This document shows, in pieces, positions 714 through 9,750 of a DNA stretch of 22,037 nt (position 1 is its first letter; each line of letters begins with the position of its first letter). The position numbers and the translations under genes are program-made. The notes beneath the pieces are model-generated. The model was not told where the DNA came from. It saw only the letters and a program-made list of their open reading frames with translations, and made no database searches. This DNA comes from a virus. The stretch spans positions 4,548 to 26,584 of the IMG/VR virus record IMGVR_UViG_3300030110_004413. One strand, given 5' to 3'.

Positions 714-1625
714 ATGAGAAAAATAGGCACACCTTTAACTGTCGAAGGTAAAGGACAAAAAAATACACAATCAAAAAGAGCTAAAGGTTTCGGTTATCAA
801 GTCTTAGGATTTGGTGCTGGAGGAGGTGCAGCACCTGTTGAAGTAGAATATTTAGTTGTCGCCGGTGGTGGCAGTGGAGGAAAAGATCTTTCAGGCGGCG
901 GTGGAGCAGGAGGCTTTAGACTTTCTTATGGGAATACTCCTTTATCTTCTGGAGAACCTATTGAAATGGCAGCAGGAACTAGTTACAATATAGTAATTGG
1001 TTCAGGTGGTGGAGCAGGATCATCAGCAGCTTCTGGACAAGATTCAACAGTACAAACAGATTCAGGAAGTTTTGAAGCTACAGGAGGCGGCCGTGGAAAT
1101 GGCGGTCAAACAGGCGGAGGATTAAGTGGAGGCTCAGCCGGTGCAGGAAATACTCAAGGAAACGCAGGGGGATATACTCCACCTGAAGGAAACGGCGGTG
1201 GTGATGGCCAAGGTTCTGGCGGAGGCGCTGGTGGACCCGGTGGATCTCCATCTGGTGCAACTGGTGGTGCGGGAGCACCTAATGCATCTATTGATACCGC
1301 TAATACAACTTACGCTGGTGGCGGTGGCGGTGGTGGTTATACTACTGGTGGCGGCGGATCAGGTGGTACTGGTGGCGGCGGTAATGGTGGTAATAGACCA
1401 GGCGGCTCAGGTAACCCAGGACAAGCTTCAACAGGAGGCGGCGGCGGAGGCGGCGGCGCTGATGGCGGAGGCCCAGGCGGCGGAGGCGGAACTGGAAGAA
1501 TGAATTTCAGAGCACCTTCAGCTATTACATTCACAGTAGCTCCAGGAACAAACACCACGGGTACAGCTCCTAATGGAGACAAATTAGCTGAATTTACAGT
1601 TTCAGGAACAATACAAGTAGATTAA
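714..1625 (+). CDS. Glycine-rich phage adhesin-like protein
   Basis: A 303-residue protein. After a basic head (residues 1-40) comes the hallmark VEYLVVAGGGSGG (44-56), the opening of the glycine-rich domain found in many phage tail-tip proteins. Residues 97-261 are dominated by Gly runs separated by short loops, and 262-303 form a non-glycine beta-like end (MNFRAPSAITFTVAPG). Known relative by design, not by alignment: the Salmonella phage S16 Gp38 adhesin, where packed polyglycine II helices present receptor-binding loops. The start is set by an AAGGAG ribosome binding site at 701-706, seven bases before the ATG and overlapping the preceding stop. Long GGC/GGT runs stand out in an AT-rich genome. 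Open frames on the other strand and in another frame here are low-complexity shadows. Role as tail-tip host-recognition protein is inference. Confidence 0.7.
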   Translation: MRKIGTPLTVEGKGQKNTQSKRAKGFGYQVLGFGAGGGAAPVEVEYLVVAGGGSGGKDLSGGGGAGGFRLSYGNTPLSSGEPIEMAAGTSYNIVIGSGGGAGSSAASGQDSTVQTDSGSFEATGGGRGNGGQTGGGLSGGSAGAGNTQGNAGGYTPPEGNGGGDGQGSGGGAGGPGGSPSGATGGAGAPNASIDTANTTYAGGGGGGGYTTGGGGSGGTGGGGNGGNRPGGSGNPGQASTGGGGGGGGADGGGPGGGGGTGRMNFRAPSAITFTVAPGTNTTGTAPNGDKLAEFTVSGTIQVD

Positions 1626-1627
1626 TT

Positions 1628-2134
1628 ATGGCAACATTTTGTGAACTAGACGAAAACAACATTGTAATAAGAGCCATCAAAATAGGCGATGACGAAGTAC
1701 CTAATGGAAATGGAGACGTTGCTGGTGAAACTTATTGTAATAAATTCTTGGGTGGAACATGGAAACAAACTTCTTATAATACTCTAGGTGGAATTCATTA
1801 TATTGTTGATGAAGAAACAGGTGTTCAAAGTGTTAATCCAGATCAAACTAAAGCGTTTAGAAAAAATTATGGAGTGCCTGGATTTAAATATGATGCAACT
1901 AAAGATGCTTTTATTGAACCTAAACCATATGAAAGTTGGACTTTAAACGAAACTTCTTGTTTATGGGAAGCACCTGTTGCAAGACCATCTACAATTAATG
2001 TAGATGCTGAAACTGAAGCTTATCCTTTTGAATGGAATGAAGTTAATCAAAGATGGGAAGCACCTGAATTAGGTAGTAATTCAATAAGTTATTATTGGAA
2101 TCCTTCGGATTCTTCTTGGAATTCAATTTCATAG
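1628..2134 (+). CDS. Conserved marine-phage hypothetical protein with repeated Trp motif
   Basis: 168 residues. It matches my memory of a protein type common in marine phages, with an N-terminal ATFCELDENNIVIRAI segment, a central GGTWKQTSYNT (42-52) and an FRKNYGVPGFKYDATKDAF stretch (78-95). The C-terminal third carries a repeated two-Trp unit: W104 to W113, W136 to W143 and W157 to W164, the first two ending in the same WEAP (113-116, 143-146). The start is two bases after the adhesin stop, so the genes are probably translationally coupled. Its place directly after the fibre and adhesin genes suggests a tail-tip, fibre-assembly or carbohydrate-contacting role, but I know of no demonstrated function. 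It is the last gene before the promoter of the oxygenase island. Confidence 0.6.
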   Translation: MATFCELDENNIVIRAIKIGDDEVPNGNGDVAGETYCNKFLGGTWKQTSYNTLGGIHYIVDEETGVQSVNPDQTKAFRKNYGVPGFKYDATKDAFIEPKPYESWTLNETSCLWEAPVARPSTINVDAETEAYPFEWNEVNQRWEAPELGSNSISYYWNPSDSSWNSIS

Positions 2135-2185: not shown

Positions 2186-2755
2186 ATGATACTTAAACAT
2201 CCATATTGGTTTTTTAAAGATGTAATTCCACATCATGTTTGTGATTTAATTGTTAAAGATTGTTTAAATAGAAAAGCTAAAAAAGGTTTAGTTGGTAATC
2301 AATCTAATGACGATTTAAAACATGTTATGTCAACAAGAGATTCTAATATTGTTTTTGTTAATGAACCTTGGATACATAATTTAATTCAACCATATATAAG
2401 AACTGCAAATAAAAACGCTGGGTGGAATTTTCAATTAGGACTTCCAGAGGAAATTCAATTCACAGTTTATAATAAAAATCAATTTTATGATTGGCATTCA
2501 GATTCTTTTCCAGAACCTTTTAAAAATGGTTCTATTAGAAAAATTTCATCAACACTACTATTAAATGATTCATCAGAATTTAAAGGTGGAGAGTTTTGGT
2601 TTAGTATTGAAGAGGACAGGAAAGTATGTGAAGAATTAAATAGTAAAGGAAGTTTAGTTGTATTTCCATCTTTTATAAGACATAAAATTGCACCTATTAC
2701 AAAAGGCACAAGGTATTCTATGGTTACTTGGAATAATGGTGACCCATGGAAATAG
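2186..2755 (+). CDS. 2OG-Fe(II) oxygenase 1 (PiuC/prolyl-hydroxylase-like)
   Basis: 189 residues. Visible 2-oxoglutarate/Fe(II) oxygenase signature: iron ligands H104 and D106 (YDWHSDSF), GGEFWF (134-139) on the central strands, distal iron ligand H166 (PSFIRHKIAP) and R176 (GTRYSMVTW) for the 2-oxoglutarate carboxylate. It ends WNNGDPWK, nearly the same closing motif as the last oxygenase of the array (6968-7519), so these two are paralogues. I chose ATG 2186 because GAAAGG (2173-2178) is seven bases upstream; a TTG at 2171 is in frame but lies at or before the predicted transcript start. The family typically hydroxylates a side chain, coupled to decarboxylation of 2-oxoglutarate to succinate. 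The substrate cannot be read from sequence. Confidence 0.85.
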   Translation: MILKHPYWFFKDVIPHHVCDLIVKDCLNRKAKKGLVGNQSNDDLKHVMSTRDSNIVFVNEPWIHNLIQPYIRTANKNAGWNFQLGLPEEIQFTVYNKNQFYDWHSDSFPEPFKNGSIRKISSTLLLNDSSEFKGGEFWFSIEEDRKVCEELNSKGSLVVFPSFIRHKIAPITKGTRYSMVTWNNGDPWK

Positions 2756-3324
2756 AATTAAGAGATGATCATATAGGTGTATTTAAAAATGCATTACCTG
2801 AAGATTTAATTGATAGTTATATAAATTTTTATAAACAAAACGAAAAACAAGGATTAGTTTATCCAAGAGAATTTGATTTTCACGATGCTGCAGATAATCA
2901 AATTGACCTAATAACAGATACTTTTAATATGAATGTTCCTTATAATAGTAAACCATTCATAGAAGTTTTTTTTAAAAACATATACCCCGTTTATTGTAAA
3001 AAATATTCTATTTTAAACGAGGTACAAAAACACAGTATCTATGATATTAAAATTCAAAAAACTATTCCTGGAGAAGGTTATCATAGTTGGCATATAGAAA
3101 ACTCAAGTTTAGCATTAAGAAATAGATTGATGGCTTTTATGGTGTATTTAAACGATGTAAAAGAAGGAGGAGAAACTGAATTCTTACATCAAAAATGCAG
3201 ATTTAAACCTGAAAGAAATACATTGTTAATATGGCCAGCAAACTATACTCACGTACATAGAGGTAATTCCCCATTATCAAATGATAAATATATTATTACA
3301 GGGTGGATTGAGTATGGTGTTTAA
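2746..3324 (+). CDS. 2OG-Fe(II) oxygenase 2 (prolyl 4-hydroxylase-like, HxE variant)
   Basis: 192 residues, overlapping the previous gene by 10 bases. The double-stranded beta-helix core is clear: YHSWHIENS with H116 and E118, a long helix-to-strand segment MAFMVYLNDVKEGGETEF (129-146), a distal histidine in THVHRG (H171, or H169), and K181 in NDKYIITGW where most family members have Arg. Lysine at this place is known from animal collagen prolyl 4-hydroxylases. The second iron ligand is Glu instead of the usual Asp, which is unusual. The GGETEF element is a strong prolyl 4-hydroxylase type signature. Substrate unknown: peptidyl proline is the simplest guess, but free amino acids or other targets are possible. 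Confidence 0.8.
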   Translation: MEIELRDDHIGVFKNALPEDLIDSYINFYKQNEKQGLVYPREFDFHDAADNQIDLITDTFNMNVPYNSKPFIEVFFKNIYPVYCKKYSILNEVQKHSIYDIKIQKTIPGEGYHSWHIENSSLALRNRLMAFMVYLNDVKEGGETEFLHQKCRFKPERNTLLIWPANYTHVHRGNSPLSNDKYIITGWIEYGV

Positions 3325-3904
3325 AAAACAAAAATATCAAATAATTAGAAATGTTATATCAAAAGAACTAACTGAATTTTGTTATCAATATTTAAAACTA
3401 AGAAGAGATGCATTACATCATATGCTAATAAAAAAACTTATATCAATACATGACACCTCTTTCGGATGTTTTGGTGATTCAATGATTCCTGAATGCTATT
3501 GCATTTATGGTGATCCATGCATGGAAACTTTATTAGTTGCAATGCAAAAAAATATGGAAAAAATTACTGAAGTAAAACTAGTGCCAACATATGCTTATGC
3601 AAGAATATACAAACAAGGTAATTCAATGCGTAAACATAAAGATAGATTAAGTTGTGAAATATCTACTACAATGAATCTTGGAGGAACACTTTGGCCAATA
3701 TATTTAGAAGGTAAAGCGGTCAAACTAAATCCTGGAGATATGTTAGTTTATAAAGGTTGCGAATTAGAGCATTGGAGAGATCAGTTAAAAAAAGGAGAAT
3801 GTGCACAAGTTTTTTTACATTATAATAAAAATACAAAGAAAGCTGTAAAGTTTGATGGCAGAGCTGCATTAGGAGTTCCATCTTATGGAAAAAATTACAG
3901 TTAA
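3314..3904 (+). CDS. 2OG-Fe(II) oxygenase 3 (divergent)
   Basis: 196 residues from ATG 3314. An upstream in-frame ATG at 3281 would lie 44 bases inside the previous gene; I prefer 3314 because it gives an 11-base overlap like the other pairs. The core resembles marine-phage oxygenases: LVPTYAYARIYKQGNSM (89-105), then H108 and D110 in KHKDR, NLGGTLWPIYL (121-131), and H153 in ELEHWRDQL. The basic residue expected about a dozen positions after the distal His is missing: the place holds GECAQVFLHY (Q165), so 2-oxoglutarate binding may differ or be lost. K159-K160 could substitute. The C-terminal 25 residues extend beyond the fold. Family call firm, catalytic competence less so. Confidence 0.72.
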   Translation: MVFKKQKYQIIRNVISKELTEFCYQYLKLRRDALHHMLIKKLISIHDTSFGCFGDSMIPECYCIYGDPCMETLLVAMQKNMEKITEVKLVPTYAYARIYKQGNSMRKHKDRLSCEISTTMNLGGTLWPIYLEGKAVKLNPGDMLVYKGCELEHWRDQLKKGECAQVFLHYNKNTKKAVKFDGRAALGVPSYGKNYS

Positions 3905-4388
3905 AATAGGTAAGTATAGATACAAAGATCATTTTAAATATAAAAATGAATTAATGGATCTTTTTAAAAAAGAGCCTTCATTTATAAATGATATTTATAA
4001 AGTTGATTTTAATAATAGTACAGATTTTGAAAGGCCTTGGATAAAAATGATAAGAAAAAGTTTTGGTAATAGTTTTAAACCGTGGCTAAAACAAATGAAG
4101 TTTGGAAAATTACATATAAAAAATTTGTGGTTTCAACAATATAACAAAGGCAACAAACACGATTGGCATATACATGGTTGTAGTTTTTCTGGTGTTTATT
4201 ATGTTAATTATAATAATAAATGTATTGGTACAGAATTAATTGATCCATATTCAAATAAAATAATAAAACCAAAAGTATCAGAAGGTGATGTAATTATATT
4301 TCCAGCGTTTGTAATTCATAGAGCACCTGCAGAAAAAACAAATGATTTAAAAACAATAATATCTTTTAATTTTGATTGTGAGTTATGA
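3885..4388 (+). CDS. Putative 2OG-Fe(II) oxygenase 4 (HxH type, SGVYYV family)
   Basis: 167 residues. The start at 3885 has AGGAG at 3871-3875, inside the previous gene, which it overlaps by 20 bases. HDWHIHGCSFSGVYYV (92-107) fits the family in which a histidine-rich turn is followed by SGVYYV (Pfam-type 2OG-FeII_Oxy_5, from memory). Here the canonical HxD is HxH (H95, H97). Distal H145 in FVIHRAP follows GDVIIFP (134-140), and K156 sits where the 2-oxoglutarate-binding residue is expected. The overall strand order matches the double-stranded beta helix. HxH could still bind iron, as in cupins, but activity as a 2-oxoglutarate enzyme is not guaranteed. The substrate is unknown. Confidence 0.72.
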   Translation: MEKITVKIGKYRYKDHFKYKNELMDLFKKEPSFINDIYKVDFNNSTDFERPWIKMIRKSFGNSFKPWLKQMKFGKLHIKNLWFQQYNKGNKHDWHIHGCSFSGVYYVNYNNKCIGTELIDPYSNKIIKPKVSEGDVIIFPAFVIHRAPAEKTNDLKTIISFNFDCEL

Positions 4389-4969
4389 TTAAAGTTGTAG
4401 ATAATTTAATATCAAAAAAATACCAAGATAAAATTATTAATACAGTTAATGATAATTATTTTCCATGGTATTTTTATGAAACTGTTTTAAGTGATGAAGA
4501 AATAAAAAGAGCAGGTAATAAAAATATTACCTTAACTCCAGCATTTGTGCATACTTTATTTATTTTACCTAAAGGAATAAATTCTAATTACTATGACTTT
4601 TTTATTAAAATGTTAGACACCTTTAATGTAAAAGAAATTATTAGAATAAGAATTAGAAGAACTTTTAAACAAGAAAATCATAATTTAAAAAAATACAACT
4701 ATCCACACGTAGATATAGATAAACAACAAAACTACAAAAGTTTAGTTTATTATGTTGAAGATTCTGATGGGGACACTGTTTTCTTTGATAAAAAATATAA
4801 ACTAGGTGGTCCTACTTTCATTGATTTAGACTATAAAGAAATAAAAAGAGTGTCTCCCAAAAAAGGAAGAGCAATATATTTTGACGGAGAAATTTATCAC
4901 GCTGGTAATAATCCGGTTAACTCTGACATTAGAACAATAATTAATTTTGATTTTATTACCAATGAGTAA
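4385..4969 (+). CDS. 2OG-Fe(II) oxygenase 5 (marine-phage P4H-like)
   Basis: 194 residues, coupled to the previous gene through an ATGA overlap (start 4385, stop ending 4388). All key residues are present: H108 and D110 in YPHVDIDK, a strand YKSLVYYVEDSDGDTVFF (117-134), distal H172 in EIYHAGNNP, and R183 in SDIRTIINF. N-terminal FPWYFYETVL (26-35) is also echoed in the later gene at 6482 (LPWYYRNEQT), and both end in R-x-I-I/V-I-N type strands, so the two form a paralogue pair within the array. Type known from marine T4-like phages; substrate not established. The DNA here is extremely AT-rich (a hand count of bases 4381-4440 gives 9 G+C of 60). Confidence 0.85.
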   Translation: MIKVVDNLISKKYQDKIINTVNDNYFPWYFYETVLSDEEIKRAGNKNITLTPAFVHTLFILPKGINSNYYDFFIKMLDTFNVKEIIRIRIRRTFKQENHNLKKYNYPHVDIDKQQNYKSLVYYVEDSDGDTVFFDKKYKLGGPTFIDLDYKEIKRVSPKKGRAIYFDGEIYHAGNNPVNSDIRTIINFDFITNE

Positions 4970-5486
4970 CATTGTATTTCATAAAAATGTTTTAGATGAA
5001 AATTTAATAAACCATATAAAAAAATATGTTATAGACAATAAAGCAAGTAAGAAATGGCAAACCAGTATGTTTTGGCCCGAGTTTATTCAAAAGACGTCCA
5101 CGACAGTTTCTGTTTTAAGTTTAGATGATAATAAAAAAATATGTAAAGAATTGAGAAAAATATATAATAAACTTATCCCTGAAACAAAAAAGATGGGCAT
5201 GGAAGTTAATTATTACATATGGCCCCCACTTAGTTATATTCCTTTTCATGATGACAGTCACAAGCAAGTTGCATCTACTATATATTTAAATAAAGATTGG
5301 CATATAGATTGGGGTGGATTATTTTTATATTATGAAGATCAACAAATAAAAACATTTTTTCCCTCTTACAACACTTGCATTATAAATAATAATAAGATAT
5401 CACATGGTACATCCTTAACTACAATGGATGCTGTTAACAGAGAGACTATACAGGTATTTTTTTATGAAAGAAACAATGTTAAGTAA
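4962..5486 (+). CDS. 2OG-Fe(II) oxygenase 6 (Tpa1/prolyl-hydroxylase-like)
   Basis: 174 residues. Start taken at ATG 4962, an 8-base overlap (ATGAGTAA) with the previous stop; an in-frame TTG at 4947 is less likely. Motifs: IPFHDDSH with H96 and D98, a strand with TIYLNKDW (106-113) then DWGGLFLYYED (116-126), distal H148 in ISHGTS, and R160 in VNRETIQVFFYE. The order HDD, DWGG-L-L-Y, and His then Arg is the pattern of peptidyl prolyl hydroxylases related to yeast Tpa1/Ofd1, which act on ribosomal protein S23 (known for yeast). By analogy a protein substrate, possibly in translation, is plausible, but free proline or other substrates are also possible. Confidence 0.83.
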   Translation: MSNIVFHKNVLDENLINHIKKYVIDNKASKKWQTSMFWPEFIQKTSTTVSVLSLDDNKKICKELRKIYNKLIPETKKMGMEVNYYIWPPLSYIPFHDDSHKQVASTIYLNKDWHIDWGGLFLYYEDQQIKTFFPSYNTCIINNNKISHGTSLTTMDAVNRETIQVFFYERNNVK

Positions 5487-6120
5487 TTGGGATAAAGCAA
5501 AACCTATTATCGAAAGTGGCGATAGAGCTGTGCCTTTTGTTGTCCCACCAAAAGCATTTGCATGGTTAAAGAAAGCTGCTAACAAAGCTACTCGCGATGC
5601 TACCAAAACTTTAATTGGTCATATTAAAAAAGAATATCATATAGATAATATTAGTGATGAATTTAAAAAATTTATTTTAATTGATTGTTTATCTAACCCT
5701 CAAATCTTGTACCGCACAAAACAAATAAATATTTTATCACGACCTTGTGAATTTTATATTGATGATCTATGGGTAAACTTTCAAAAAAAACACGAATTTA
5801 ATCCTCCCCATACTCATTCAGGTTTGTATTCATTTGTTATCTTTGTAAAGATTCCATACGATTTAAAAAAAGAAGAAGAATATTTTAGTGACATTAAAGA
5901 AGATCCTGCAAATATTAGATATAACCATACCTCAAAATTTGCATTTTTAAATGCAGATTATAGTGGAGAGATACGTTGTGATCTTTTAAATGTAGATAAA
6001 AGTTTTGAAGGCAAAATGGTAATGTTTTCTGCAAAACAATCACATCAAGTTTTTCCATTTTATACAAGTAATGGTTATCGAATCACAGTATCAGGCAACC
6101 TTAAATTTAAGGTGGCTTAA
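5476..6120 (+). CDS. Putative 2OG-Fe(II) oxygenase 7 (PHTHSG type)
   Basis: 214 residues from ATG 5476; longer forms from ATG 5464 (four residues more) or ATG 5428 are possible. I favour 5476, which overlaps the previous stop by 11 bases with a purine-rich GAAAGAAA upstream, but the start is uncertain. The first 90 residues (LSNWDKAKPIIESGD, then a basic helical region) lie outside the core. The core starts at EFYIDDLWVNFQKK; H112 and H114 in PPHTHSGLYSFVIFV give an HxH in place of HxD, H190 (KQSHQVFPF) is the distal ligand, and R202 (NGYRITVSGN) the carboxylate binder. The SG after HTH links it loosely to the gene at 3885. The last codons contain a 16-base perfect palindrome. Substrate unknown. 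Confidence 0.7.
   Translation: MLSNWDKAKPIIESGDRAVPFVVPPKAFAWLKKAANKATRDATKTLIGHIKKEYHIDNISDEFKKFILIDCLSNPQILYRTKQINILSRPCEFYIDDLWVNFQKKHEFNPPHTHSGLYSFVIFVKIPYDLKKEEEYFSDIKEDPANIRYNHTSKFAFLNADYSGEIRCDLLNVDKSFEGKMVMFSAKQSHQVFPFYTSNGYRITVSGNLKFKVA
6098..6113. repeat. 16-bp perfect palindrome, same ACCTT-N6-AAGGT frame as the island promoter dyad
   Basis: ACCTTAAATTTAAGGT is a perfect palindrome at the very end of the preceding oxygenase gene, 48 bases before the start of the unknown gene at 6162. The dyad at the island promoter (2164-2179) reads ACCTTATTTGAAAGGT: identical five-base arms and identical spacing. A poor TTAAGG (6107-6112) and a good TATGAT (6131-6136) 18 bases apart could form a weak promoter just after it. 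Shared operator use is inference; AT-rich palindromes also occur by chance. Confidence 0.45.
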
Positions 6121-6161
6121 TACAATAATGTATGATACAAAAATGGCTAAAGGATAAAGTA

Positions 6162-6506
6162 ATGAGTGCAATAACATTTGCTAAAAAGCATTTAAATAAC
6201 GCTAGGTTTCCTAGTGAGAAAACGCGTAAAACGCAATTGTGGGACGTGTCTGGTATTTTAAAAAATAGATATAATGAAAGATTTAAATTTGATGTAAGAC
6301 CATTAAAAATTATGTTTGATAATAAAAAAGCTAAAAAGGGGTCTACTAAAACTAAAGCAGATAAAATGGTAGTCGAGACTTTAAGTCAATGGCTAATTGT
6401 AGACATAAAAGAATTACACGAATATATTTTTAAAAATAAAATACAACATGTATATGTTGAACAAATAATAAAGGATCTAGAATGGAACGTAATTATACAG
6501 AAATAA
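6162..6506 (+). CDS. Unknown small basic protein inside the oxygenase array
   Basis: 114 residues from ATG 6162. This start is chosen because AAAGGA (6149-6154) lies seven bases upstream; an in-frame ATG at 6132 has no such site. I do not recognise the protein. It has no HxD...H pattern, no signal peptide and no membrane segment. The N-terminal half is basic (FAKKHLNNARFPSEKTRKTQLWDVSGILKNRY in parts; many K and R), then a KKAKKGSTKTKADK stretch (59-72), and the C-terminal half is predicted helical (ELHEYIFKN, VEQIIKDLEWNV). The charge would suit binding to nucleic acid or to another protein. It is the only non-oxygenase in the ten-gene run, preceded by a 41-base gap and overlapping the next oxygenase by 25 bases, so it is probably co-expressed with it. 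A regulator, a partner or a substrate of the enzymes are all open options. Confidence 0.6.
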   Translation: MSAITFAKKHLNNARFPSEKTRKTQLWDVSGILKNRYNERFKFDVRPLKIMFDNKKAKKGSTKTKADKMVVETLSQWLIVDIKELHEYIFKNKIQHVYVEQIIKDLEWNVIIQK

Positions 6507-6967
6507 AAAATTTTTTACCTGATGAAGAATTTAAAGCATTAAGAAAAATAATGTTTTCAAAAGAATTACCTTGGTATTATCGTAACGAACAAACTTATTC
6601 AGATAGGTTTTATTTTAACCATAGTTGTTATCAGTGGTATACTGAGACTTCTGATTTATTTGAACATGTTAAACCTATACTACATAAATTAAAAGTTAAT
6701 ATGTTATCAGAAGTAAGAGCTAATTTAATTTTAAAAGATAAAGAACATCATCAATCTGGTTGGCATTGTGACAGAAACTTTGATTGTAATACAGCCGTAT
6801 TTTATATGAATACAAATAATGGATACACTTTGTTGGGTGAAAAAAATCCTACAAAAATTGAATGTGAAGAAAATAAAATGTTAATATTTAATTCACAAAT
6901 TAAACATTGTGCGGTTAGTCAAACTAATAAGGTTAGAAGGATTGTTATTAACATTAACTATGTGTAA
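6482..6967 (+). CDS. 2OG-Fe(II) oxygenase 8 (marine-phage P4H-like)
   Basis: 161 residues, overlapping the unknown gene by 25 bases, with AAAGGA near 6470-6475 as ribosome binding site. Iron ligands H95 and D97 in GWHCDRN, strand TAVFYMNTNNGYT (104-116), MLIFNSQIKHCAV with distal H142, and R152 or R153 in KVRRIVINI. The N-terminal LPWYYRNEQT (29-38) and the C-terminal strand match the style of the gene at 4385, so they are likely paralogues of one subfamily that have separated within the array. At 161 residues it is close to a minimal double-stranded beta helix, leaving little room for substrate-recognition domains. Substrate unknown. Confidence 0.84.
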   Translation: MERNYTEIKNFLPDEEFKALRKIMFSKELPWYYRNEQTYSDRFYFNHSCYQWYTETSDLFEHVKPILHKLKVNMLSEVRANLILKDKEHHQSGWHCDRNFDCNTAVFYMNTNNGYTLLGEKNPTKIECEENKMLIFNSQIKHCAVSQTNKVRRIVININYV

Positions 6968-7519
6968 ATGAAATACACTTATTATTACTATGACAATATT
7001 ATACCTACAGATAGGATAAAAAATTTAAATAACTTTATCTTAAATAACGCAGATAATTCTTTAAAAGATAAGTACAATGGTAAAATTAAAAAAACAGCTG
7101 ATGTTAAAATAATTAACTGGAATTCATTAAAAAATCAAATTGAATTCATAGAAGATTATGTTGACAAATGTAATCAAGAAGCCTTTAACTTTGAAACATA
7201 TAGATTTAATAAGTTAGATGCAATGAATCATAATACTTACAGTTCTAAAAATAAGGGTTGCTATAATTATCATGCTGATGGATCTCCTTATGAAAAAGAG
7301 TATACGTTAAAACTTACAGTGTTATTAAATTTATCTACTGAAAAATATAAAGGTGGGGACTTTTACATATGGGATGGTGAGGATGTGCGTATAAAACAAT
7401 TTAATAAACCCGGTGCCTTATTAGTATTTCCTTCTTATTTTCCTCACAAAGTAACACCAGTTACCGAAGGAAAAAGAACAACTTTAGTTTTATGGAAAAA
7501 AGGCCCTTGGTGGAGATAG
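6968..7519 (+). CDS. 2OG-Fe(II) oxygenase 9 (PiuC/prolyl-hydroxylase-like)
   Basis: 183 residues, starting on the base after the previous stop. H102 and D104 in YNYHADGSP, LTVLLNLS (116-123), KGGDFYIWDGED (128-139), GALLVFPSYFPH with distal H160, and R170 in EGKRTTLVLW make a complete 2OG-Fe(II) oxygenase site. The end, WKKGPWWR, mirrors WNNGDPWK of the first gene (2186-2755), as do the GGDF/GGEF and LVFPS elements, so the array begins and ends with relatives of the same subfamily. The N-terminal 95 residues are Asn/Lys/Tyr-rich. No terminator follows: the 47-base gap to the next gene shows no hairpin, so transcription probably continues into the tail genes. Confidence 0.86.
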   Translation: MKYTYYYYDNIIPTDRIKNLNNFILNNADNSLKDKYNGKIKKTADVKIINWNSLKNQIEFIEDYVDKCNQEAFNFETYRFNKLDAMNHNTYSSKNKGCYNYHADGSPYEKEYTLKLTVLLNLSTEKYKGGDFYIWDGEDVRIKQFNKPGALLVFPSYFPHKVTPVTEGKRTTLVLWKKGPWWR

Positions 7520-7566: not shown

Positions 7567-9750
7567 ATGCTACAAAAATTAGGTTTTCTACCAGGATTTA
7601 ACAAACAAGTCACAGAAACGGGAGCCGAAGGGCAATGGTTTGGTGGTGATAATGTTAGGTTTAGATATGGTACACCTGAAAAAATAGGTGGATGGGATCA
7701 ATTAGGGGCCGATAAATTAACGGGTCCAGCCCGAGCAATTCACCACTTTGACAATAATGCCGGCGTAAAATATTCTGCTATCGGAACAAGTAAAATTCTT
7801 TATATATACTATGCTGGATCTTACTATGATATTACGCCATTAAGAACTTCAATTGCCAGTTGTAATTTTTCTACAACTAGCGGACAGCCTACTGTTACAG
7901 TAACTTTTCCCTCTTCACATGGTATGGTGGAAGGAGATATTATAACTTTTAGTAGTGTAACCACACTTACAGGATCGAGTTTTCAAACTACAGATTTTGA
8001 AGGAAAAGTTTTTGAGGCCACACAAGTTCCAACTTCTACTACCATTGAATTAACTATGGCTGCTAATGAAACTACTGGAAGCACTAGCAATGTTGGAAGT
8101 GCGACTGGTAGTCCTTATTATCATGTTGGTCCTAATCAACAACTAGGGGGCTATGGATGGGGAACAGCTAACTTTGGCGGAACCGCTTCAGGTATCGCAA
8201 CGACTACTCTATCAACAACACTTGCATCTGATGCCGCGGTCACAACTGTAGTTGTAGCTAGCTCTACTGCATTTCCAGATTCAGGAGAAATTAGAATTGG
8301 ATCAGAAGATATTAGTTATACAAATAATGATACTACGACAGGGACTTTAAGTGGAGGAGCTCGTGCGGTTAATGGAACTACTCTAGCCGGCCATACTGCA
8401 GGAGTAACAGTAAGCAATATTTCTGATTATGTAGCATGGGGAGAATCGTCTTCTGAAGACGTTACACTTGATCCAGGCTTATGGGTTTTAGATAACTATG
8501 GAACAAAATTATTAGCACTTATTTATAACGGACAATGTTTTGAATGGGATTCCTCAATAGCAAATGCAACTAACACACGAGCCACATTACTAGCTAATGC
8601 ACCTACAGCTTCAAGACATATGTTGGTTTCTACACCAGATAGACACTTAATATTTTTTGGAACAGAAACTACAGTGGGGGATAGTACTACTCAAGACGAT
8701 ATGTTTATTAGATTCTCAGATCAAGAAAGTATTGATGGAACTAATTCTTATACAGTAACCGCTAATAATACCGCTGGTACTCAAAGACTAGCTGATGGCT
8801 CTAAAATTATGGGAGCTGTACAAGGTCGAGATGCCATTTATGTATGGACCGATAAAGCATTATTTTTAATGCGTTTTGTTGGAGCGCCATTTACTTTTTC
8901 TTTTGAAATAGCTGGAACTAACTGTGGATTAATAGGGAAGAATGCTGCGATTGAAGTTGATGGTACTTCGTATTGGATGGCTGAAAACGGATTTTTTGCA
9001 TATGATGGTAGATTAAAATCTTTACCGTGCTTAGTAGAAGACTATGTATATGATGATATTAACACAACATCCAGAGATTTAATTAACTGTGGATTAAATA
9101 ACCTTTTTACAGAAGTAAACTGGTTTTATTGCACTAATGGTTCTAATGTAATTGATAGAGTGGTTACCTATAACTATCTTGAATCAGGATCTAAGAGAAC
9201 TATATGGACCACAGGTAGTTTAGCTCGAACAGCGTGGCAGGATTCTTCAATCTTTGATAAACCTCATGCAACTAGATATGATACTAGCTCCAATACCTCT
9301 TTTGATGTTGTTGGAAATACGGCTGGCTGTACGTACTACTATGCCCAGGAAACAGGGACCGATCAAGTGGACGCAGGTGGAGTAGTTACTGCTATTCTAG
9401 CCAACATTGAATCCGGAGACTTTGATATTACTCAAAGAACATCTAGAGGTGGTGGACAAATTGTAGGAATGCCAGATCTTAGAGGGGATGGTGAATTTGT
9501 AATGAGAGTTAGTCGATTTATACCTGATTTTATTAGTCAAACGGGTAGCACAAGGGTCTCATTGGTTACTAGAAATTATCCAAATAGTAGTACAAGTACA
9601 ACAAATTATGATATAACAACAGCTAGTACAAAGGTTGATACTCGAATAAGAGGAAGAGCCGTTCAATTTAAAGTAGCTAATACGGCCGCTGGCCAAGATT
9701 GGAAACTAGGTACGTTTAGATTGGATATACACCCAGGAGGAAGAAGATAA
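7567..9750 (+). CDS. Tail hub / phage stabilisation-like structural protein
   Basis: 727 residues. The N-terminus (GFNKQVTETG then WFGGDNVRFRYGTPEKIGGW, 10-43) is the opening I associate with a widespread marine podovirus tail protein annotated as stabilisation or tail-tube protein. The rest is beta-rich with few charged clusters (AIHHFDN, LLALIYNGQ, HLIFFGT, IMGAVQGRDAIYVWTD), suggesting repeated blades. Residues about 215-284 look like an inserted Ig-like or beta module: TVVVASSTAFPDSGEIRIG, then EDISYTN, TGTLSGGARAVNGT and AGHTAGV, a motif series I recognise from many environmental phage virion proteins. The ribosome binding site AAGGA (7556-7560) is six bases from ATG 7567. Likely role: sealing or extending the short tail below the connector. 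The name is by family memory and is not tested. Confidence 0.6.
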   Translation: MLQKLGFLPGFNKQVTETGAEGQWFGGDNVRFRYGTPEKIGGWDQLGADKLTGPARAIHHFDNNAGVKYSAIGTSKILYIYYAGSYYDITPLRTSIASCNFSTTSGQPTVTVTFPSSHGMVEGDIITFSSVTTLTGSSFQTTDFEGKVFEATQVPTSTTIELTMAANETTGSTSNVGSATGSPYYHVGPNQQLGGYGWGTANFGGTASGIATTTLSTTLASDAAVTTVVVASSTAFPDSGEIRIGSEDISYTNNDTTTGTLSGGARAVNGTTLAGHTAGVTVSNISDYVAWGESSSEDVTLDPGLWVLDNYGTKLLALIYNGQCFEWDSSIANATNTRATLLANAPTASRHMLVSTPDRHLIFFGTETTVGDSTTQDDMFIRFSDQESIDGTNSYTVTANNTAGTQRLADGSKIMGAVQGRDAIYVWTDKALFLMRFVGAPFTFSFEIAGTNCGLIGKNAAIEVDGTSYWMAENGFFAYDGRLKSLPCLVEDYVYDDINTTSRDLINCGLNNLFTEVNWFYCTNGSNVIDRVVTYNYLESGSKRTIWTTGSLARTAWQDSSIFDKPHATRYDTSSNTSFDVVGNTAGCTYYYAQETGTDQVDAGGVVTAILANIESGDFDITQRTSRGGGQIVGMPDLRGDGEFVMRVSRFIPDFISQTGSTRVSLVTRNYPNSSTSTTNYDITTASTKVDTRIRGRAVQFKVANTAAGQDWKLGTFRLDIHPGGRR

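Follow-up and report, generated by a model that had tools for sequence, protein, structure and literature searches.

The multiplicity of 2-oxoglutarate (2OG)-Fe(II) oxygenases in HTVC023P-type pelagiphages, cyanophages and marine metaviromic islands has already been published. The HTVC023P-type phages carry eight non-orthologous 2OG types (PMC9599517), the cyanophage S-SCSM1 encodes 24 2OG oxygenases (PMC9602691), and in marine metaviromic islands Fe(II) oxygenases rank with the most frequent genes that could be identified, being listed together with host-recognition genes and with an inferred role (PMC3909814). The HTVC027P transcriptome paper mentions gp73, with no timing for it in its main text. 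Here we studied a stretch of 22,037 bases (the window) of the 26,584-base virus record IMGVR_UViG_3300030110_004413. Positions 2186-7519 of the window contain ten tightly packed open reading frames (ORFs), all on the + strand, located between a pair of Gly-rich and phrog_7759 genes and the gene of a stabilization protein; nine of them belong to the 2OG superfamily. Marine phages both related and unrelated to this one also carry such arrays (2 to 12 genes), so that the array of the window is not uniquely extreme. Its genes are drawn from a shared pool and are replaced wholesale with the adhesin region, even where the neighbouring virion protein is nearly unchanged.

The window is a late-gene segment and its gene order is that of HTVC027P, HTVC023P and 023Pt_psg01 (synteny). 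The late order from the fibre genes through the stabilization protein to the terminal helicase gene is conserved, and the helicase gene has 73% DNA identity to that of HTVC027P. Judging from these sequence comparisons, the phage is an HTVC023P-type pelagiphage, a podovirus group with cultured members infecting SAR11. An assembly artefact or chimera was rejected as the source of the array, since independent assemblies of two other metagenomes each contain a contig with the same array, differing at 1 and 2 of 5349 bases. The array and its neighbours are listed below by position in the window.

714..1625, + strand: Gly-rich (36% Gly) fibre/adhesin-like protein, head of the island; PF21722 Gly_rich_2 above cut-off, phrog_2295
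1628..2134, + strand: small conserved protein of the 'MAxFxELD' type, encoded after the Gly-rich gene and ahead of the array; phrog_7759 (8e-33)
2186..2755, + strand: oxygenase 1, PKHD-like; PF13640 (5e-14), phrog_61 (2e-34); HxD..H..R
2746..3324, + strand: oxygenase 2, prolyl-4-hydroxylase-like; PF13640 (6e-12), phrog_61 (1e-41); HxE..H..K
3281..3904, + strand: oxygenase 3, labelled 'ferrochelatase' in PHROGs, 2OG-oxygenase fold; phrog_2954 (4e-47); HxD..H; start probably at 3314
3885..4388, + strand: oxygenase 4; PF13759 (3e-10), phrog_81 (3e-32); HxH..H
4385..4969, + strand: oxygenase 5, labelled 'DNA endonuclease V'; phrog_274 (2e-37), PF13640 sub-threshold (8e-5); HxD..H..R
4947..5486, + strand: oxygenase 6; PF13661 above cut-off (2e-6); HxD..H
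5428..6120, + strand: oxygenase 7; PF13759 above cut-off (5e-7), phrog_81 (2e-23); HxH..H; start probably at 5464
6132..6506, + strand: ORF8, not an oxygenase; no family match in Pfam or PHROGs
6482..6967, + strand: oxygenase 9; phrog_274 (1e-41), PF13640 sub-threshold (5e-4); HxD..H..R
6968..7519, + strand: oxygenase 10, PKHD-like; PF13640 (5e-11), phrog_61 (2e-23); HxD..H..R
7567..9750, + strand: virion structural/tail stabilization protein, the conserved anchor downstream of the array; phrog_3287 (1e-90)

An earlier reading of the sequence alone (the sequence-only reading) had proposed a tandem array of nine diverse oxygenases in a tail and adhesin region, with ORF8 as the only gene of another kind, and the gene order, the family matches, the motifs and two structural models all agree with it. 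PHROGs matched the nine oxygenases at E <= 2e-7. In Pfam, ORFs 1, 2 and 10 (PF13640, 5e-11 or better), 4 and 7 (PF13759) and 6 (PF13661) score above the curated cut-offs, the PF13640 matches of ORF5 (8e-5) and ORF9 (5e-4) fall below the cut-off, and ORF3 has chance-level matches only. Structure prediction, which had been suggested as a check of the fold, recovered the double-stranded beta-helix in both modelled products. The AlphaFold model of ORF3 (predicted local distance difference test score, pLDDT, of 91.4) and that of ORF4 (pLDDT 90.6) each matched solved 2OG oxygenases with a Foldseek probability of 1.00, the top PDB entries being the Pseudomonas putida prolyl 4-hydroxylase (P4H) and PHD2 for the former and 3bvc and 2rg4 for the latter. 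For the other seven products absence of the fold is unlikely by sequence: ORFs 1, 2, 6, 7 and 10 are assigned to it by their Pfam matches above cut-off, and ORFs 5 and 9 by the sub-threshold PF13640 matches and an invariant motif. There is therefore very little doubt that the genes encode nine predicted beta-helix iron enzymes, two of them supported by a model. At the level of named enzymes, the sequence of ORF2 matches solved P4Hs (1e-5) and ORFs 1 and 10 match YbiX-type models, but the scores of the array against named-hydroxylase models are far below the curated cut-offs.

The nine enzymes fall into at least five types: PF13640/phrog_61 (ORFs 1, 2 and 10), phrog_2954 (ORF3), PF13759/phrog_81 (ORFs 4 and 7), phrog_274 (ORFs 5 and 9) and PF13661 (ORF6). 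Identity among them does not exceed 29%, and every one except ORF6 has a clear closest relative in another virus. ORF6 has no close relative elsewhere in the sampled loci, its best match in another virus having an E value of 0.03. The array is consequently not one amplified gene, as had been anticipated from its sequence types, and tandem duplication in place was rejected because the best relatives lie in other viruses.

The catalytic motifs are not uniform. The HxD/E...H iron ligands, expected in all nine enzymes from the first inspection, are present in seven (ORFs 1, 2, 3, 5, 6, 9 and 10). ORFs 4 and 7 have HxH..H instead and lack the carboxylate ligand of the canonical facial triad; therefore, not all nine are canonical. 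HxH..H is invariant among the PF13759 relatives of these two ORFs and is also found in the solved relative 3bvc, and the whole group may be iron enzymes with three histidine ligands and not 2OG oxygenases of the classical kind. A basic 2OG-binding residue had been noted in most members and was found by inspection at H+10 to H+12 in ORFs 1, 2, 5, 6, 9 and 10. The relatives of ORF3 have an invariant HxD..H, but ORF3 itself has no basic residue at H+10; it has an invariant Arg at H+2 and another ahead of HxD. Use of 2OG is predicted, with good support from the motif, for six of the nine, and is less clear for ORFs 3, 4 and 7.

Two PHROGs labels in the array are misleading. The identification of ORF3 as a ferrochelatase, which the label of phrog_2954 implies, was rejected: none of 31 ORF3-type members matched the ferrochelatase Pfam model at E <= 1, and the fold is that of a 2OG oxygenase. 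The label is almost certainly wrong, because that match is lacking, HxD and the distal His are invariant and the structural matches are to prolyl hydroxylases. GenBank records of S-SCSM1 and S-CREM1 already name ORF3 homologues 2OG oxygenases; the correction is therefore not wholly new. Members of phrog_2954 annotated as ferrochelatases occur in S-PM2, S-SM1, HTVC008M and other phages. Ferrochelatases and oxygenases were concluded to be partner genes in PMC9599517 on the strength of the ferrochelatase label, and a seasonal enrichment of ferrochelatases was claimed in PMC11561400, where phrog2954 is named; the ferrochelatases of both studies should be re-read as further enzymes of the 2OG-oxygenase fold.

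The label 'DNA endonuclease V' of ORFs 5 and 9 (phrog_274) was rejected as well. No pyrimidine-dimer glycosylase or endonuclease V Pfam domain was found in 24 phrog_274-type members, 16 of which match PF13640, and the HxD..H..R motif (H95, D97, H142, R153) is kept in all 24. In S-SM1 the gene SSM1_053 is named 'DNA endonuclease'; it belongs to the related phrog_2297/274 kind and scores above the PF13640 cut-off. Profile comparison yielded no usable similarity between the ORF3-type and phrog_274-type alignments, and the phrog_274-type profile showed weak similarity to the single sequence of ORF10 and a match (93%) to the ORF4/7 alignment. The assignment of ORFs 5 and 9 is therefore based on the motifs, the Pfam matches and the similarity to the alignment of ORFs 4 and 7. 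The endonuclease label is very probably wrong. Wrong labels of this kind have partly hidden the oxygenase arrays.

The survey of gene number in related phages that the sequence-only reading had called for covered 80 viral loci recovered through the stabilization protein, three reference phages and the window. The array is uncut in 34 loci, among which are a few sets of near-duplicates, each from one virus (window/L007/L008, L069/L071, L033/L034 and L042/L047). These arrays hold 2-11 oxygenases at the same site (median 5), and PF05118 hydroxylases, which are outside that count, raise L051 to 12 and L015 to 10. The members of the four largest arrays, examined again with PHROGs and Pfam, have the first and distal His in common. 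The view that nine genes lie far beyond the established cargo of marine phages is not supported, given these numbers, the nine-gene arrays of S-SM1 and S-RSM4 and the multiplicity already published; that of a combinatorial set fits the differing gene sets of the phages. A Gly-rich gene is among the last two genes ahead of the array in 30 of the 34 cases. In HTVC027P (L088), L017 and L018 the oxygenase block occupies the same site on the opposite strand, and the orientation of the cassette can therefore flip. A second sample, picked by ORF3 relatives with any flank, gave 36 uncut clusters of 2-7 oxygenases; 33 of these 36 are close to a Gly-rich gene, against 79% for random intervals, an uninformative control on short contigs.

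Other enzymes accompany the oxygenases at some of these loci: sulfotransferases (L015, L051 and, weakly, L083), a carbamoyltransferase (L080), a methyltransferase (L033), flavin halogenases (L021) and PF05118 hydroxylases (L015, L051). The halogenases of L021 (positions 2954-6713) are encoded by two genes of the tryptophan-halogenase type, one on each strand, which separate the oxygenases from the stabilization gene. ORF8 has seven matches in the sampled loci, copies of the same virus included, with homologues in the arrays of L015, L024 and L028 and invariant residues across three homologues. Among the sampled loci, its family (window 6132-6506; L015:9011-9367; L024:3246-3584) is found only inside oxygenase arrays, and the segments WDV.GI.KN and KADK are strongly conserved. 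A role as partner or substrate of the oxygenases is possible.

Turnover is seen in the window, L013, L014 and L015, which have nine, five, five and nine oxygenases, respectively. Their anchor proteins are 92-95% similar (normalised bit score), yet at a threshold of 55% identity no array gene is common to them, and the Gly-rich and phrog_7759 proteins are different as well. After correction for the anchor, array sharing is correlated with the similarity of the Gly-rich protein (partial Mantel 0.205, p 0.025, one of three tests), whereas no significant link was obtained with the phrog_7759 protein (p 0.135) or with the gene downstream of the anchor (partial Mantel -0.011, p 0.54). By this comparison of loci, the array is very probably part of a swappable island in the adhesin region. 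Its exchange is the behaviour of a labile island supplied from a common gene pool, consistent with the metaviromic islands of PMC3909814. The array genes are under purifying selection, the median ratio of nonsynonymous to synonymous substitution rates (dN/dS) being 0.137 over 46 orthologue comparisons, some of which have loci in common.

Oxygenases were also counted in larger genomes with profiles built in this analysis, some of the genomes having been chosen through these very genes. S-SM1 and S-RSM4 have 14 each, P-RSM4 11, HTVC008M 21 and S-SCSM1 22, and the longest tandem clusters contain nine, nine, six, six and three genes, respectively; the value for S-SCSM1 is an undercount, as ORFs 240-243 are annotated as four adjacent 2OG oxygenases and the profiles recovered two. 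The longest cluster adjoins a Gly-rich gene or lies within 2 kb of one in S-SM1, S-RSM4, P-RSM4, HTVC008M and HTVC033P. The full neighbourhood of Gly-rich gene, phrog_7759 gene and array is shared by the pelagimyovirus HTVC008M, the podovirus HTVC033P and the cyanomyoviruses S-SM1 and S-RSM4, and in P-RSM4 a carbamoyltransferase gene adjoins the array. The phrog_7759 protein (1628-2134 in the window), which has no Pfam match, is often encoded next to a Gly-rich fibre gene in several families of marine phages.

Several scenarios may explain the recurrence of these arrays. The best reading, which is put forward tentatively, is that of a swappable, adhesin-linked tailoring island whose enzymes would act on surface-recognition targets, the phage's own adhesin or fibre being the most likely presumed substrate. 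The array genes would be expressed late, together with the tail genes, and their products would use Fe(II), O2 and, for most of them, 2OG in the infected cell. They would hydroxylate the side chains or glycans on which surface recognition depends, those of the adhesin or fibre proteins being the likeliest, and the occasional sulfo-, carbamoyl- and methyltransferases and halogenases would then decorate the same target. Phages with different oxygenase sets would differ in surface chemistry, and where host receptors change quickly, exchange of the set along with the adhesin would be favoured by selection. Since the transferase companions add groups to existing positions, often hydroxyls (the halogenases and hydroxylases excepted), a tailoring role is favored. 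Position, companions and co-turnover suggest the virion adhesin protein as the main target, a proposal that falls somewhat short of being probable. An extension of this reading, in which several marine phage families have an interchangeable surface-chemistry cassette made of an adhesin, oxygenases in varying combination (as many as a dozen) and transferases, is doubtful; fibre proteins would then receive phage-specific hydroxylation and decoration, and receptor specificity would depend on post-translational chemistry in addition to sequence.

A number of observations weigh against the adhesin-linked reading. S-SCSM1 and S-PM2 have oxygenase clusters and no Gly-rich gene by the criterion used; conversely, Melnitz-3 has the Gly-rich and phrog_7759 genes and no oxygenase cluster, as do the stretches of Bellamy and CRP-143 examined. 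The array is thus associated with the adhesin pair, but neither requires the other. A whole-genome circular-shift permutation was not significant (p 0.06-0.35 per phage; for the four large genomes that have the two, 0.06-0.10), and the proximity of Gly-rich gene and array in these genomes, partly picked for these genes, is suggestive only. Many cyanophage oxygenases lie outside tail regions, and array content is weakly linked to the Gly-rich protein, by a small correlation in one of three tests. Finally, the text on the S-SCSM1 proteome names no oxygenase among the virion proteins (PMC9602691); the oxygenases are therefore not evident virion components.

Alternatively, the enzymes could modify the host envelope, altering its lipopolysaccharide, a glycan or a surface protein in the course of infection; this might, for instance, keep out superinfecting phages or prevent progeny from re-adsorbing. 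Glycans are common substrates of enzymes such as the interspersed sulfotransferases, carbamoyltransferase and methyltransferase, glycosyltransferase genes are located downstream in HTVC023P and HTVC027P, and ORFs 5 and 6 are weakly similar to an FlmC-type oxygenase model. Nevertheless, the array itself is devoid of envelope-biosynthesis genes, and its adjacency to fibre genes and co-replacement with them are more directly explained by a virion target, so that host-envelope modification seems rather unlikely. A role in auxiliary metabolism, whereby the oxygenases would act on host metabolites or lower 2OG and shift nitrogen or iron physiology, was proposed for cyanophages (Sullivan 2010, PMC3037559), and iron uptake genes rise during HTVC027P infection (PMC12753301). 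Yet one or two conserved enzymes would be enough for such a purpose, and the exchange of 2-11 divergent ones between near-identical phages fits an arms race better; moreover, the NtcA argument is a cyanobacterial one and need not apply to SAR11. This explanation is unlikely.

Modification or repair of nucleic acids, with bases of phage DNA or RNA hydroxylated to escape restriction or another defence, would also fit fast turnover in an arms race. These phages have DNA hypermodification genes elsewhere (PMC9599517), the only PDB sequence matches of the ORF3 profile are weak ones to Tet-like dioxygenases (E 0.24, 0.33), and the 'DNA endonuclease V' label points the same way. Nonetheless, the structure of ORF3 matches mainly protein prolyl hydroxylases, no phrog_274-type member matches a Pfam endonuclease model, no nucleic-acid-binding domain was found, the genes sit among late tail genes, and the PADLOC '2OG' matches reflect the superfamily only; a nucleic-acid target is thus quite improbable. 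A neutral hotspot, tolerant of insertions and accumulating oxygenases with little joint function, would suit the highly variable number and identity of the genes and the oxygenases found elsewhere in large phage genomes, but is most improbable in view of the purifying selection (median dN/dS 0.137), the near-universal iron ligands and the dominance of one enzyme class at the site in several phage lineages. As to regulation, the suggestion that the array has its own promoter was rejected: no promoter-like site was found on the + strand in the gap 2135-2185, and such sites occur across the region at chance level (41 observed, 39.6 expected).

If such arrays do tailor adhesins or surfaces, oxygen- and iron-dependent chemistry would be linked to phage-host recognition, a question made testable by the cultured HTVC023P, HTVC008M or S-SM1. 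What this analysis adds is the organisation of the arrays, their turnover and their misannotation. No earlier description of contiguous arrays, their size range, their wholesale exchange, their recurrence after the Gly-rich/phrog_7759 pair in several lineages or the relabelling of phrog_2954 was found in the literature searched, which is not proof of absence.

The closest described systems include the 2OG-Fe(II) oxygenase 'auxiliary metabolic genes' of the HTVC023P, HTVC027P and 023Pt genomes (PMC9599517), which belong to the same phage group, site and families and include several non-orthologous members per genome. They were described as nearby, not adjacent, and as paired with ferrochelatases, whereas here the genes are contiguous, up to 11-12 in number, and the 'ferrochelatase' is itself an oxygenase. 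The accessible part of PMC3909814 likewise places frequent Fe(II)-dependent oxygenases in a labile region with tail fibre genes, but it gives gene counts with inferred roles, and no description of tandem arrays was noticed in it. The T4-like cyanophages S-SM1, S-RSM4, P-RSM4 and S-SCSM1 also have tandem arrays, of up to nine genes, which in S-SM1 and S-RSM4 directly follow the Gly-rich and phrog_7759 genes; they differ in morphotype and hosts, and their arrays appear under mixed labels (2OG, DNA endonuclease V, ferrochelatase, hypothetical). Among cellular and viral hydroxylases, the P. putida P4H, which is the best structural match of ORF3, PBCV-1 vCPH and the YbiX/PiuC enzymes resemble the array enzymes in fold and, ORFs 4 and 7 excepted, in iron ligands, although the structural matches to P4H/PKHD-type hydroxylases are at about 14-16% identity only.

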